Source: Pseudorhodoferax soli
GTDB lineage: Bacteria; Pseudomonadota; Gammaproteobacteria; Burkholderiales; Burkholderiaceae_C
Direction: 5' to 3'
NCBI RefSeq assembly: GCF_003337555.1
Contig: NZ_QPJK01000014.1
Coordinates: 62,001-126,000 of the forward strand
DNA: 64,000 nt
Under the pieces are notes generated by a model. It worked only from the letters and a program-made list of their open reading frames with translations, was not told the origin of the DNA and searched no databases. A program made the position numbers and the translations under genes. Below, in pieces: positions 10,973 through 17,474 of this stretch (its first letter is position 1; the number at the start of each line of letters is the position of its first letter).

Positions 10973-11857
10973 ATGCCGCGTCCATTCATCGCCATCTTCT
11001 GCTTCCTGCTGGGCACCGCCGCCGTGGCGCAGCCCACAGACACGCTCAAACGCATCGCCGACTCCGGGCAGATCAACCTCGGCCACCGCGAGTCGTCTGT
11101 GCCGTTCTCCTACTACGACGAGCGGCGCCAGGTGCTCGGCTATTCGCACGAGTTGATGCTGCGTCTCCTGGAAGGCCTCAAGGCGGAGCTGGGCTTGCCG
11201 GCGCTGACGATCAAGCTGGTGCCGGTGACGCCGCAGAACCGGCTTGCACTGGTGCAGAACGGCACCGTCGACATCGAGTGCGGCTCGACCACCCACAACC
11301 GCGAGCGCGCGCGACAGGTCGCGTTCTCCGTGTCCATCTTCAAGATCGGCACGAAGCTCATGACCGCGCGCGACTCGGGCATCCGCGATTTTCCGGACCT
11401 GGCTGGCAAACGCGTGGTGGTGACGGCGGCCACCACCTCCGAGCGCTTGCTGCGGATGTTCAACGAGAGCATCGGCCGCAAGTTCACGATCGCCGTCGCC
11501 AAGGACCACGGCGAGTCCTTCGCGATGCTGGAAGCCGGCCGCGCCGACGCCTTCATGATGGACGACGCCCTGTTGTACGGCGAGCGCGCCAAGGCCCAGC
11601 AGCCCGAGCGCTGGGTGGTGGTCGGCTCGCCGATGTCGTCGGAGGTGTACGGCTGCATGATGCGCAGCGGCGATGCCGCGCTCAAGCGCATCGTGGACGG
11701 CGAACTGACCCGCCTGATGCGCTCCGGCGAAGCCATGCGCATCTACGGCAAGTGGTTCCAACAGCCGATCCCCCCGCGCGGGCTGAACCTGAACTGGCCG
11801 GCCTCGCCGGATCTGCTGGAGCTGTACCGCGAACCGAACGATCGGCCCGTCGATTGA
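10973..11857 (+). CDS. Periplasmic amino-acid-type substrate-binding protein
   Basis: A 294-residue periplasmic binding protein of the PAAT/SBP-3 type. The signal peptide is MPRPFIAIFCFLLGTAAVAQ; the mature part has the two-lobe pattern with GYSHEL, PQNRLALVQNGTVDIECG and the ADAFMMDD hinge region. No transporter permease or ATPase accompanies it. Instead it is translationally coupled to a DctB-like sensor kinase, so it probably acts as the periplasmic co-sensor feeding ligand to the kinase, as in other binding protein-kinase-regulator trios. The start at 10973 is placed where the signal peptide begins and downstream of the sigma-54 promoter; its RBS is weak. Confidence 0.85.
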   Translation: MPRPFIAIFCFLLGTAAVAQPTDTLKRIADSGQINLGHRESSVPFSYYDERRQVLGYSHELMLRLLEGLKAELGLPALTIKLVPVTPQNRLALVQNGTVDIECGSTTHNRERARQVAFSVSIFKIGTKLMTARDSGIRDFPDLAGKRVVVTAATTSERLLRMFNESIGRKFTIAVAKDHGESFAMLEAGRADAFMMDDALLYGERAKAQQPERWVVVGSPMSSEVYGCMMRSGDAALKRIVDGELTRLMRSGEAMRIYGKWFQQPIPPRGLNLNWPASPDLLELYREPNDRPVD

Positions 11858-13719
11858 CGACCTCTCGCCCAGTTGAGCTGCGCGATGCCCGGCGCGCGGC
11901 ACGTCGTCTTGTGGGCGCCGCAGCCGCGTTGTTGCTGATGGCGGGCAGCGCAATGCTGGCCTACCGCGACGGCCTGGACCAGGGGATGGAGCAGCTGCAG
12001 GCAGAGTCCAACCACCGTCTCGACCTGTTCGCATCGGCGGTCGAGGGCATGGTCAAGCGTTCCGAGCACGTCCCTGCCACGGTGCAGCTGCACCCCGACA
12101 TCGTGGCACTGCTGCGTGGGCCTGCCACGCCGGAACGCACGGCGGCGGCCAGTGCCTACCTGCGCCGCCTCAACGCGCATGTCGGCAGCCTTGCCGCGTT
12201 CACGCTGAACGACCGCGGTGTGGTCGTGGCCTCCAGCAACCTGGACCATCCGGACGACAGCCGCATCGGCAACGATGTGTCGTTCAGGCCCTACTTCCTG
12301 GAGGCGCTGGCCGGCCGGGTGGGCAGGCATTTCGCGATCGGCGTCGATGGCAAGACACCCGGCTACTTCGTGTCGCACCCGATCCATGACGGCGCCCACG
12401 TGATCGGTGTCGCCGCCATCAAGATCAGCCTGCAACCGATCGACCAGACATGGGCAATGGTCGGCGCGCCGGCGCTGCTGGCCGATGCCAACCGCGTGGT
12501 GATCCATTCCTCGCGCGTGGACTGGCGCTACACCTCGCTGGTGCCATCGACGCTGGAGCAGCGCGTGGAGCAGCAGCTCACGCGCCTGTACGACGACATG
12601 CGCATCCCGCAGTTCCCGCTGGTGCCGCAGCTCGATCCGCAGGTCGAACGCCAGCAGATCGGCGAGGAGCTGGTGCTGACCCGGCCGCTGGACGGCATGG
12701 ACTGGCGGGTGATGCTGTTCCTCGACCTGAAGGACGTGCGCCATGCCGCGTTGATGCAGGCCGCCATGTCGGCGGTGGCTGCGGCCTTCGTCGCACTGCT
12801 GGCGCTGGTCCTGGTGCAGGCGCGCCGCATCCAGCGCCAGCGCCAGGAGGCACGGCGCATGCTGGAGAGCGCCAACGCCGATCTCGAGTCGAAGATCGGG
12901 GCGCGGACCCAGGACTTGCTGGACGCCAATGCACACCTCAAGCGCGAAGTGCGCGAGCGCGAGCAGGCCGAGCAGTCGCTGCGCGACGCGCAAGTGGAGC
13001 TGGTCCACGCCGCCAAGATGGCCATGATGGGGCAGCTGGCCGCCGGCATCACGCACGAACTGACGCAACCGCTGGGCGCCATCCGGACCTTGTCCGGCAA
13101 CGCGGAGGAGTTCATGCGGCGTGGTCAGCTGGAGCCGGTGGCCAGCAACCTGTCCATCATCGCGCGGCTGACGGACCAGATGGGCAACATCATCCAACCG
13201 CTGAAGGCCTTCGCGCGCAAGTCTGAGCCCCAGCTCGTCCGCACGGACATCGGCCAGACCTTCAGCAACGCGCTGTTCCTGTACGGCTTGCGCCTGCGCA
13301 AGATGCTGGTTGCGTTGGTCAACGACTGCGCGCCGGGCACCGTCCACGCCTGGTGCGATGCGAACCGGCTCGAGCAGGTGCTGATCAATCTCATCGGCAA
13401 TGCGCTGGACGCGATGGCCGCCACGCCGGCGCCGGAGCTGGCGCTGAGGGCCGGATGTTCGGAGGGCCCCGCGGGTGGGGTTCGGTGGACATGGATCACC
13501 GTCGAGGACAACGGCGCCGGCCTCTCGCCCAAGGCACGCGAGCAACTGTTCGAACCCTTCTTCACAACCAAGGCCCCAGGCGCCGGGCTGGGCCTGGGGC
13601 TGGCCATTTCCCGCGACATCGTGCGTGGCTTCGGCGGCGACATCCAGGTCACCGACAGGGCGGGTGGCGGCACATGTTTCCGATTGCAGATCCCGTCCGA
13701 CGGGCCCAGACCGACATGA
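11854..13719 (+). CDS. DctB-like sensor histidine kinase
   Basis: About 621 residues. A first membrane helix (near residues 20-40) and a second (near 300-325) flank a periplasmic double-Cache domain, with motifs FTLNDRGVVVASS and PYFLEALAG typical of DctB sensors of organic acids. Then come a coiled coil, a dimerisation/phospho-acceptor segment (AAGITHELTQPLGAI) and an HATPase with NLIGNALDAM, DNGAGL and GLGLGLAISRDIV. The likely start is TTG at 11854, overlapping the stop of the binding protein gene. A GTG seven codons later is also possible. It ends by ATGA overlap with the regulator gene, forming a complete signalling pair. Confidence 0.9.
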   Translation: MTTSRPVELRDARRAARRLVGAAAALLLMAGSAMLAYRDGLDQGMEQLQAESNHRLDLFASAVEGMVKRSEHVPATVQLHPDIVALLRGPATPERTAAASAYLRRLNAHVGSLAAFTLNDRGVVVASSNLDHPDDSRIGNDVSFRPYFLEALAGRVGRHFAIGVDGKTPGYFVSHPIHDGAHVIGVAAIKISLQPIDQTWAMVGAPALLADANRVVIHSSRVDWRYTSLVPSTLEQRVEQQLTRLYDDMRIPQFPLVPQLDPQVERQQIGEELVLTRPLDGMDWRVMLFLDLKDVRHAALMQAAMSAVAAAFVALLALVLVQARRIQRQRQEARRMLESANADLESKIGARTQDLLDANAHLKREVREREQAEQSLRDAQVELVHAAKMAMMGQLAAGITHELTQPLGAIRTLSGNAEEFMRRGQLEPVASNLSIIARLTDQMGNIIQPLKAFARKSEPQLVRTDIGQTFSNALFLYGLRLRKMLVALVNDCAPGTVHAWCDANRLEQVLINLIGNALDAMAATPAPELALRAGCSEGPAGGVRWTWITVEDNGAGLSPKAREQLFEPFFTTKAPGAGLGLGLAISRDIVRGFGGDIQVTDRAGGGTCFRLQIPSDGPRPT

Positions 13720-15053
13720 ATCCAAGTGCGCTTTCTGTCCTGATCGTCGAGGACGATCCCCATGTGCAGCTGGGCTGCGTGCAGGCGATCCAGCTGGCCG
13801 GCCTGCCGGTCACGGCGGTGGCGTCTGCCGAGGAGGCGCATCCCCTGGTGCGGCCGGGCTTCGCCGGCGTCGTCATCACCGACATGCGGCTGCCGGGGCA
13901 GGATGGGCTGGCGTTGATCCGCTGGTGCCAGCAGCGCGACGCCGACATGCCGGTGATCATGATCACCGGCCATGGCGACGTCGGTTTGGCGGTGGAGGCC
14001 ATGCGCAGCGGTGCCTACGACTTCATCCCCAAGCCCTTCTCGCCGGAGGCCTTGGTGGAGATCGTGCGCCGCGCACTCGAAAAGCGTGCGCTGACGCTGG
14101 AAGTGGCGGCCCTGCGCAAGTCGCTGGCCAGCCGGGCCGGGCTGGAGAGCCAGCTGATCGGCAACTCGCCGCAGATGCAGCGCGTGCGCCATCTGGTCGC
14201 CGAGGTGGCGGACTCGCCGGTCGACGTGCTGGTGCACGGCGAGACCGGCACGGGCAAGGAGGTGGTGGCGCAGGCGCTGCACACCCATTCCACGCGCCGC
14301 GGCAACCCCTTCGTCGCGCTCAACTGCGGCGGCATGCCCGACAACCTGCTCGACAGCGAGCTGTTCGGCCATGAGTCCGGCGCGTTCACCGGGGCGCAGA
14401 AGCGGCGCATCGGCAAGATCGAGCATGCGCACGGCGGCACGCTGTTCCTGGACGAACTGGAGTCCATGCCTCCGGGCATGCAGATCAAGCTGCTGCGCGT
14501 GCTGCAAGAGCGGCGTGTGGAGCGGCTCGGGTCCAACGAGGGCATGCAGGTCGATGTGCGCGTGGTCGCCGCGACCAAGGAGAACCTGCTGCAGCGGGCC
14601 AGGGAGGGAGGCTTTCGGCTCGACCTCTACTACCGGCTCAACGTCGTCACGATCGAGCTTCCGGCGCTGCGCGAGCGCCGCGAGGACGTGCCGCTGCTGA
14701 CCGAGCACTTCATGCTGCTGGCGGCCAGCCGCTACAACCGGCCACACCCGGGTGTGACCCAGGAGCAGTTGCGTCGCCTGATGGCACACGACTGGCCAGG
14801 CAACGTGCGCGAGTTGCGCAACATGGCCGACTGCCTGGTGCTGGGCATACCGAGCGGGGTGCTGGGCGCTGGCGAGGTGCCAGCCGCCGACGTGCCCGTG
14901 CCTTCGCTGACCGAGATGGTCGACACCTACGAGCGCGGGCTGATCGCCGCGGAGCTGAGCCGCAACCAGGGCAACGTGGCCCACAGTGCGCGTGCGCTGC
15001 GCATCGCCAAGACCACGCTGGCCGACAAGGTGCGCAAGCACGGCCTGCTCTGA
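13716..15053 (+). CDS. DctD-like sigma-54-dependent response regulator
   Basis: A 445-residue NtrC-family activator. Residues 1-120 are a receiver with the acidic pair in VEDDPHV and phospho-Asp in ITDMRLPG. Residues about 145-375 are the AAA+ domain with Walker A GETGTGKE, an intact GAFTGA loop for contacting sigma-54 (ESGAFTGAQ), Walker B LFLDELES, and the arginine-finger region. The C-terminus has a Fis-type helix-turn-helix (NVAHSARALRIAKTTLADKV). It is coupled to the kinase by an ATGA overlap. Paired dyads and sigma-54-type promoters before this operon and before the next gene are its likely targets. Confidence 0.93.
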   Translation: MNPSALSVLIVEDDPHVQLGCVQAIQLAGLPVTAVASAEEAHPLVRPGFAGVVITDMRLPGQDGLALIRWCQQRDADMPVIMITGHGDVGLAVEAMRSGAYDFIPKPFSPEALVEIVRRALEKRALTLEVAALRKSLASRAGLESQLIGNSPQMQRVRHLVAEVADSPVDVLVHGETGTGKEVVAQALHTHSTRRGNPFVALNCGGMPDNLLDSELFGHESGAFTGAQKRRIGKIEHAHGGTLFLDELESMPPGMQIKLLRVLQERRVERLGSNEGMQVDVRVVAATKENLLQRAREGGFRLDLYYRLNVVTIELPALRERREDVPLLTEHFMLLAASRYNRPHPGVTQEQLRRLMAHDWPGNVRELRNMADCLVLGIPSGVLGAGEVPAADVPVPSLTEMVDTYERGLIAAELSRNQGNVAHSARALRIAKTTLADKVRKHGLL

Positions 15054-15180: not shown

Positions 15181-15196
15181 TGGCATATGCCTTGCA
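15181..15196 (+). promoter_or_regulatory. Sigma-54-type -24/-12 promoter
   Basis: TGGCATATGCCTTGCA contains TGGCA and TTGCA with the exact GG-to-GC spacing of the sigma-54 consensus. The predicted transcription start is near 15207, about 94 bases before the M20 peptidase gene. Confidence 0.75.
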
Positions 15197-15300: not shown

Positions 15301-17022
15301 ATGGCAACGCAATTCAAACTGAACCTGATGGCCTGCTCAGTGGCCGTGCTGATCGCCGGCTGCGGCGGCGGTGGCGACGACCCGCCGGCGCCGCCCCCGG
15401 AGCCCGGCAACCCCAACGTGCCCGCCATCTCTGCCGAAGTGCAGGCCGCCTCGCAAAAGATCGTGGCCGATGCGAACGTGCGCGCCGCCGTGGCCGAGTG
15501 GGACACCGCTGTCAACGCGCAGGAGCGTTTCCACCAGCACATGGAGCTGGTGCGCATCGCCTCGCCCTCGCGCGAGGAGTACAACCGCGCCCGCGAGATC
15601 AAGCGCCGCATGGTGCAGGAATGGGGCTTCGCCGAGAGCGAGATCCGCACCCGGGAAGACGGCAATCTGCCCGGCTCGGACGTGCAGCTCGTCGATGGCC
15701 TGCCCGTCTACAACATCTGCGCCGAGATCAAGGGCAGCTACTCCAGCTCCGCCGGCGCCCAGAGCTACCGCGGCCAGTACCCCAAGGTGCTGGTCGAGGG
15801 CCACATCGACACCGTCAACCCGGAGCGGCTGACCTACTTCTATGAGCCGGTGAAGTTGCAGCCCATCTCGCTGCCCATCGTCGAGACGCCGGCGCAGCTG
15901 GCCGCGGTCCCGGACGAGCTGGCCTTCGATGCCGCCGGCCGCATCGTGCAGGACGCCAACTACGCGCGCGCCCGCCGGTACTTCGACACCGCCGAGGCCG
16001 CGACGGCAGGTGGTGCAATGCGCATCTATGTGCCTGGCTACGGCGATGCCATGGGCAACGTCTCGGGCGTGCTGAACATCGCCAAGGCGATGAAGAAGTA
16101 CAACATCAAGCCGGTCTACGACATGTGGTTCTGCGGCACTGCCGGCGAAGAAGGCAAGGGCAACCTGGCCGGCATGAAGCAGCTGTACGGCTACGACCAG
16201 AACAAGGGCACCGGCACCAACCCGCTGAACTTCGTCACCAACTTCGGCATCGACGGCGGCAGCGGCACCATCAACTTCATCGGCAGCTACCGCTTCGAGA
16301 TGAAGTACTCGGCACCTGCGGGCCCCGGCACGAACCAGCCCAGCGCCTTGGAGGCCGCAGCGGCTTCGATCGCCAAGATCGCCGACATCAAGACCCCATG
16401 GGACGACAACAAGGAGGCGCTGAAGACCACCTACACGGTGGGCGTTGTCAGCTGCGAGGAGCCAGCCGCCGGCAGCACCGTGGTGCCCAGCTGCACCGTG
16501 CAGGTGGACATGCGCTCGCCGCGCCTGGAGCCGCTCAACGAGATCCGCAGCCGCATCGAACCGCTGTTCCAGGCCGGCGTGAGCGAGGAGAACGCGCGCT
16601 ACAGCCTGGCCGACGCATCGGCGCAGGCCGTGAAGATGGAACTCACCTGGTTCGGTGACCGCCCGCCGCACGAGCGCACCAACCTGTCCGACGTGTCGAT
16701 CCAGGCAGCCTGGCAGTCCGCCGAGATCGTGGGCGTGGACAAGCGGACCGAGGTTTCCACGGCGGCCAGCAGCCTGAACGACAACGTGCCCGCCGCCATC
16801 GGCGTTCCGACCATCAACCTGAACATCGCGACGTCTGCCACCGGTGGCGGCGGCCACGCCTTCTGGGAATGGGGCATCCCCGGCAACCAGGCCACCGAAG
16901 TCCTGCGCATGAAGCGCGTGATGGCCGCAGCGCTGATCGCCTCTGGCTTCCACGCCGCCGACGGCAGCGTGACGCCGCCGGCGGCCGGCCCGATCGGCAA
17001 GCGCACCGCCGAAGTCCAGTGA
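15301..17022 (+). CDS. M20 family metallopeptidase, lipoprotein
   Basis: A 573-residue exported peptidase. A lipoprotein signal ends in the lipobox IAGC near residue 20, followed by a Gly/Pro linker. All M20 metal-site residues are visible: His168 and Asp170 (EGHIDTV), bridging Asp249 (GYGDAMGN), Glu283/Glu284 (AGEEGKGN), Asp318 (IDGG) and His519 (GGGHAF). The M20 dimerisation or lid domain lies about residues 325-450 but is degenerate: the family GxxH motif reads GPGTN (Asn345), so the histidine usually given across the dimer is missing. The following small gene codes for a separate lid-like protein that keeps that histidine. Expression is probably controlled by sigma-54 and the upstream DctD-like regulator. 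Confidence 0.9.
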   Translation: MATQFKLNLMACSVAVLIAGCGGGGDDPPAPPPEPGNPNVPAISAEVQAASQKIVADANVRAAVAEWDTAVNAQERFHQHMELVRIASPSREEYNRAREIKRRMVQEWGFAESEIRTREDGNLPGSDVQLVDGLPVYNICAEIKGSYSSSAGAQSYRGQYPKVLVEGHIDTVNPERLTYFYEPVKLQPISLPIVETPAQLAAVPDELAFDAAGRIVQDANYARARRYFDTAEAATAGGAMRIYVPGYGDAMGNVSGVLNIAKAMKKYNIKPVYDMWFCGTAGEEGKGNLAGMKQLYGYDQNKGTGTNPLNFVTNFGIDGGSGTINFIGSYRFEMKYSAPAGPGTNQPSALEAAAASIAKIADIKTPWDDNKEALKTTYTVGVVSCEEPAAGSTVVPSCTVQVDMRSPRLEPLNEIRSRIEPLFQAGVSEENARYSLADASAQAVKMELTWFGDRPPHERTNLSDVSIQAAWQSAEIVGVDKRTEVSTAASSLNDNVPAAIGVPTINLNIATSATGGGGHAFWEWGIPGNQATEVLRMKRVMAAALIASGFHAADGSVTPPAAGPIGKRTAEVQ

Positions 17023-17039
17023 ACCTCAGGAGAGAACCC

Positions 17040-17474
17040 ATGAAGAAGACGATCGCATCCCTCTTGTGCCTGGCAGCGCTGGGCATGGCGTCTGCGCATG
17101 CTGCAGGCCAGACCAGCATCGTGGTCGAGTTCCAGGGCCCCGGCGGCCACAGCAACGGCGCCTATGGCCGCACCAGCGCCGTCCACGCCGCTGGTCGGGC
17201 ACTGGTGAAGCTCAAGGGCGCCGGCCTGCCGGTGGGCTCGTACAGCGTGTCGGGCCTGAACGGAGGCAACTCGGTCAACAGCATCGCCAGCGACGCGCGC
17301 TACACGGTGACGGCCCTGAGCTCCGATCCAGGCGTGCAGGCCGCCATCGCCCAGCAGGTGGCGGCCACGGCGAAGGCCGGTGCCGACGCGGAGAACGCCT
17401 TCCGCGGCGTGAAGGAGGGCGACACCGCGGGTGGCGCGCGGGCGGACATCCGCTACACCGTGGCGCCGCAGTAG
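17040..17474 (+). CDS. Small exported protein resembling a free M20 lid domain
   Basis: 144 residues with a clear Sec signal peptide ending near AHAAG. The mature part resembles the peptidase M20 dimerisation domain: a strand ending GPGGHSNGAYG (His37), a helix TSAVHAAGRALVKL, then a strand and turn SVSGLNGGNSVNSIAS, matching the family patterns G-x-x-H-s and G-G-x-x-x-N-x-I. No catalytic domain follows. It starts 17 bases after the M20 lipoprotein gene with RBS CAGGAGAG, so the two are co-transcribed. I infer that it docks on the M20 lipoprotein and supplies the histidine its own lid lacks. Alternatively it could be an inhibitor or scaffold. Confidence 0.8.
   Translation: MKKTIASLLCLAALGMASAHAAGQTSIVVEFQGPGGHSNGAYGRTSAVHAAGRALVKLKGAGLPVGSYSVSGLNGGNSVNSIASDARYTVTALSSDPGVQAAIAQQVAATAKAGADAENAFRGVKEGDTAGGARADIRYTVAPQ

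Follow-up and report, generated by a model that had tools for sequence, protein, structure and literature searches.

The locus examined here raises the question of whether the active site of an M20 peptidase can be divided between two genes. In the window (the whole 64,000-nucleotide stretch of DNA that was analysed), a gene for an exported M20-type lipoprotein (L) is followed by a gene for a small protein (S) resembling a detached M20 lid, and a preliminary description of the locus proposed that S supplies in trans a histidine that L has lost. Both open reading frames are present in the window sequence where that description placed them, with 17 bases between them. The features of the locus are collected in Table 1.

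Table 1. Features of the L-S locus and its upstream region, in window coordinates
Feature	Position	Strand	Basis
Sensor histidine kinase, start approximate; dCache_1 below curated cut-off	11854..13719	+	family matches
Sigma-54-dependent response regulator, start approximate	13716..15053	+	family matches
Sigma-54-type promoter TGGCATATGCCTTGCA, begins 120 bases ahead of L	15181..15196	+	TGGCAY-N5-TTGCW pattern
L, exported M20 metallopeptidase lipoprotein, putative catalytic subunit, 573 aa	15301..17022	+	ORF, Pfam, PDB and fold matches, alignment
Lipobox IAGC of L, residues 18-21	15352..15363	+	by eye
H168-x-D170 metal-ligand motif of L	15802..15810	+	alignment
Asp249 metal ligand of L	16045..16047	+	alignment
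Glu283-Glu284 catalytic/ligand pair of L	16147..16152	+	alignment
Asp318 metal ligand of L	16252..16254	+	alignment
Degenerate lid loop of L, residues 338-346, APAGPGTNQ; GPGGHS in single-chain relatives	16312..16338	+	alignment
Second degenerate lid motif of L, residues 383-399; GGxSVNxI in single-chain relatives	16447..16497	+	alignment
Arg405 of L (D-x-R-S motif), retained cis Arg	16513..16515	+	alignment
His519 metal ligand of L	16855..16857	+	alignment
AGGAGAG, ribosome-binding site ahead of S	17028..17034	+	sequence reading
S, exported, predicted free M20 lid protein, 144 aa	17040..17474	+	ORF, Pfam, PDB profile, AlphaFold, Foldseek
His37 of S (GPGGHS), proposed trans His	17148..17150	+	alignment
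Asn80 of S (GGNSVN), proposed trans Asn	17277..17279	+	alignment
Leu93 of S, at cis Arg position of single-chain relatives	17316..17318	+	alignment

L retains the M20 metal site

L matches the Pfam family Peptidase_M20 above its curated cut-off (26.2 bits against 24.6) and M20_dimer exactly at the cut-off (21 bits against 21), and its closest sequence match in the PDB is PahZ2 (7ljh), over L residues 240-524 (E 8.3e-17). The metal ligands, all of which were described as kept, are found at the positions given for them and are conserved in 24 L rows (H168, D170, D249, E283/E284, D/E318, and H519), of which two partial rows end short of H168/D170 and one ends short of D249. Position 318 is Asp in 5/24 rows and Glu in 19/24, and we take it to be the Asp/Glu position that is linked to substrate class in M20 enzymes. 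At that position, Asp is associated with amino- and dipeptidases and Glu with aminoacylases and carboxypeptidases, according to an M20 review (PMC6271292). Near the metal site, L departs from its single-chain relatives at A167 (→ G/S), T492 (→ L), and D493 (→ N; L003 numbering).

In proteobacterial records, all 13 full-length L proteins have a lipobox-like Cys (matched by pattern in 11 and recognized by eye in L012 and L014); none of the eight full-length L proteins of other MAGs has one. Two further cysteines, Cys385 and Cys398, lie at the former GGxSVN site and are invariant in L (27/27), with none of the single-chain relatives containing them; a disulfide between them in exported L is plausible.

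S is a predicted free M20 lid

S was described as an exported, lid-like protein of 144 residues that begins 17 bases downstream of L and carries GPGGHS with His37, and each of these points agrees with the open reading frame, the Pfam match, and the alignment. S scores 25.6 bits against M20_dimer (cut-off 21), and its signal peptide was recognized by eye, with no predictor. Residues 23-130 of S align to the lid region of 7ljh (217-327) in a PDB sequence search (E 1.6e-10), and 7ljh is also the best match in a profile search (E 2.5e-14). A match to 4xhp in the profile search (E 0.004) is at chance level and was disregarded. The AlphaFold model of S alone (pLDDT 87.8, pTM 0.83) is organized as strand-helix-strand-strand-helix-strand, and Foldseek with this model returns 7ljh first (TMq 0.70, E 2.4e-7) and 38 matches at E ≤0.001, all of which are M20-type hydrolases by title. 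By Pfam, PDB profile search, AlphaFold, and Foldseek, S is a predicted free M20 lid, as its preliminary assignment called for.

No catalytic domain is present in the S chain, and the S open reading frame is separate from L in 20/20 loci. The window's genome has 21 M20_dimer matches, of which the one in S lies in the shortest open frame (271 codons, for a gene of 144 aa); the other 20 frames are at least 389 codons in length. In a lid-domain tree of 89 rows, S (24 rows) and the L lids (21 rows) each form one group (100/100 for both); the tree is built on few columns and rooted at the midpoint, its bootstrap had not settled, and the branches leading to the S and L-lid groups are very long. A fused L-S chain, obtained from L012 by translating across the natural stop codon, yields a model with a pLDDT of 78.4 and a pTM of 0.70 (whole-chain scores only), in which the L lid and the S part have their main elements in the same order. 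A Foldseek search with the fused model recovers the catalytic and lid fold of L, with 7ljh first (E 1.0e-15, 18% identity); the 50 of 108 matches (E ≤0.001) that were listed are M20-type by title.

Lid residues are partitioned reciprocally between L and S

Three lid motifs, GPGGHS, GGxSxN, and DxRS, are presumably those of CPG2 His229, Asn275, and Arg288, and their distribution differs between the two proteins. In an alignment of distinct sequences, the trans His is found in 0/27 L, 29/29 S, and 44/44 single-chain relatives; the trans Asn in 3/27, 29/29, and 44/44, respectively; and the cis Arg in 27/27, 0/29, and 44/44. The 27 L and 29 S sequences represent 38 rows each, with near-identical rows collapsed and the partial L rows L001, L013, and L017 removed, and six later loci (L099 to L104), which are outside these counts, agree with them. 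The 44 single-chain relatives are the 45 ORFs with fetched loci minus one duplicate, with weaker single-chain matches without loci left out, and in 45/45 of these ORFs the S-HMM match lies inside the protein's own lid. There are 26 columns that are at least 95% conserved in the 44 single-chain relatives but lost in 21 L, and 11 of the 26 are within the two partner-facing motifs.

The preliminary description reported Asn345 in L where His is expected. The loss of the lid His is confirmed throughout L, but the loop is shortened and variable, and the change is therefore not assignable to a single residue. Column 345 contains Asn, Gly, Asp, or His (N12/G8/D3/H1) in one alignment, and in another the His column falls on Pro, Arg, or Ala; L013, L040, and L023 have a stray, unconserved His in this loop. 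The term "split" peptidase is likewise apt in that there are two genes, but L keeps a whole lid domain, lacking only the two partner-facing motifs. Loss of GGxSxN from L with its retention in S, and retention of the Arg in L with its absence from S, go beyond what had been described; this reciprocal loss, which was not foreseen, is a close fit to completion of the site in trans. The alignments support the proposal that S would supply the His in trans within a two-part peptidase.

The gene pair is conserved but patchily distributed

Searching genome contigs with S identified 23 loci, each with an L match upstream (23/23) at a distance of 9 to 41 bases. Some of the seed peptides for this set contained the His and Asn motifs, which biases conservation within it, and the survey was therefore repeated with L as the query. 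With L as sole query, S is located directly downstream on the same strand in 20/20 L copies (14 from the window's family and 6 from the phylum of an Acidobacteria-labelled MAG), in agreement with the seeded set. The gaps at these 20 loci are 4 to 29 bases, with the exceptions of L040 (-4, a short overlap) and L037, which is on the same contig as L005 and has a gap of -130 from the HMM envelope start but ∼41 from the aligned start.

Among 250 genomes of the window's family there are nine L-type matches (>680 bits) in eight genomes, with the next match at 95 bits. The same eight genomes contain nine free S, all beside L (9/9), and the remaining S matches are inside open frames of at least 406 codons; co-occurrence of the two genes thus holds whether L or S is taken as the starting point. 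In a second sample, of 399 family genomes, there are 14 L copies in 12 genomes; one member of the window's own genus lacks the pair, and the distribution is therefore patchy. No L-type match was found outside the window's own genome among 398 phylum and 274 class genomes. In 396 genomes from the phylum of the Acidobacteria-labelled MAG there are six L copies, after which scores fall from 1033 to 87 bits. These genome draws overlap with each other and with the 23-locus set, and the counts are therefore not additive. Pairwise distances of L and S are correlated (r 0.93 over 21 pairs), as expected of co-inherited genes.

Two genomes contain two L-S pairs each (L038 and L103; L102 and L104). The MAGs containing L016 and L019 are labelled Cyanobacteria and Acidimicrobiia, labels that appear doubtful because the phylum sample that yielded both MAGs also yielded the Acidobacteria-labelled MAG.

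A proposed heteromeric M20 peptidase and its alternatives

L and S very probably constitute one heteromeric M20 metallopeptidase, with S standing in for the lid of the second protomer. The catalytic subunit L would contribute two metal ions, the catalytic Glu, and an Arg from its own lid, and S, a bare lid, would dock onto the L lid where the lid of a second protomer would sit, such that His37 and Asn80 of S could reach the L active site in trans. As the L lid would face no second catalytic domain, its own His and Asn motifs would be useless and could have decayed, and as S would serve no catalytic domain of its own, its Arg could have been lost. The arrangement resembles a dimer in which only the lid of the second protomer is left and, if this is true, a homodimer was made a heteromer through complementary decay. 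We infer that L and S dock with a 1:1 or L2S2 stoichiometry, that the complex contains metal, and that it acts on a peptide or an N-acyl amino acid outside the cytoplasm. It is rather unlikely, but worth stating, that S is a diffusible activator, with the membrane-anchored L of proteobacteria remaining off until soluble S docks and completes the active site; if so, the supply of free lid would set activity outside the cytoplasm.

A first alternative, which we regard as improbable, is that an M20 lid gave rise to S as a regulator of L (an inhibitor, chaperone, or targeting factor) that contributes no catalytic residues. S is a small exported protein with linkage to L in 20/20 loci, and lid-lid contacts would permit binding without catalysis; a mere binder, however, needs no His and Asn motifs, yet S keeps those that L has lost in 29/29 sequences, and L would then be without residues found in 44/44 single-chain relatives. 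A reading of L as an ex-peptidase, that is, a binding or sensing lipoprotein with an M20 fold and S as its partner, is more doubtful still, as the metal-ligand positions and both Glu residues are conserved in proteobacterial and Acidobacteria-type L alike. The divergence of L from single-chain relatives around the metal site is consistent with that reading, as is the occurrence of a family-3 solute-binding protein and a sensor kinase close to the pair at the window locus and a small number of others, but by crude gene calls the kinase is in 5/24 loci only. It is extremely improbable that S acts for the cell's single-chain M20 enzymes, with L working without trans residues: 8/19 genomes contain, at another locus, a long-ORF M20 relative whose lid is matched by S, but 11/19 have no such match at E 1e-6, the single-chain relatives keep their own His and Asn (44/44), and S is linked to L.

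Comparison of L-S with known M20 systems

The poly(aspartic acid) hydrolase PahZ2 is the top PDB sequence and fold match of both L and S, but has its catalytic domain and whole lid in one chain. The single-chain relatives (n = 44) similarly differ from L-S in having GPGGHS, GGxSxN, and DxRS all in one protein. M16 peptidases belong to a family and fold unrelated to M20. Their active-site residues are typically in one half, with both halves required, according to one report (PMC12731061).

In the CPG2 homodimer, Arg288 of one lid contacts His229 and Asn275 of the lid of the other monomer, as described in the M20 review (PMC6271292); the active site is thus completed by His and Asn of the partner lid meeting an Arg, as proposed for L-S. 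DapE is also similar in that its dimerization domain is needed, with deletion abolishing activity, although the authors ascribe this loss mainly to a loosened active-site loop and leave the role of His194 open (PMC4012986). Unlike L-S, both CPG2 and DapE are composed of two identical subunits, with no separate lid gene. PepV, the lid of which mimics a dimer, differs from L-S in being encoded by a single gene. For this monomeric enzyme, Asn217, His269, and Arg350 of its own lid are proposed substrate binders, and in PepD, in which lid residues act within one monomer, His219Ala reportedly has no effect, Asn260Ala leaves about half of the activity, and Arg369Ala abolishes it (PMC6271292).

A search of the open-access literature, in which some queries were poorly aimed, found neither a free M20 lid protein nor a described case resembling L-S. 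The chemistry and fold of M20 enzymes are known, and what appears to be new, relative to the open-access literature, is the proposed division of the active site between two genes. L-S would be a natural system in which the roles of two M20 protomers are genetically separate, and the part played by each residue is testable by mixing two proteins. Where an L-type gene is annotated as an M20 peptidase, its product should be assayed jointly with the small neighbour.

Neighbourhood and possible regulation of the L-S pair

Upstream of the pair, the window codes for a sensor kinase and a response regulator, as well as a family-3 solute-binding protein. The strict sigma-54 pattern has a single match in the window, compared to a mean of 0.09 in 100 shuffles (at least one match in 7/100), and the response regulator is probably the activator of the L-S pair. 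Of 22 sequences scanned, three (the window, L004, and L008) have a sigma-54-like site ahead of L, L009 has a weaker site, and the other 18 have none. The near-consensus sigma-54-type promoter and the adjacent sensor and activator genes point to regulated expression of L-S in the window locus and a few others. Of 24 loci surveyed, the window, L004, L008, L014, and L015 have relatives of the sensor kinase, and regulation by the kinase and sigma-54 is therefore not general; the gene calls in this survey were crude, overlooking S at several loci, and several loci were incomplete. Among the gene families found in at least three loci, the L-S pair alone is general.
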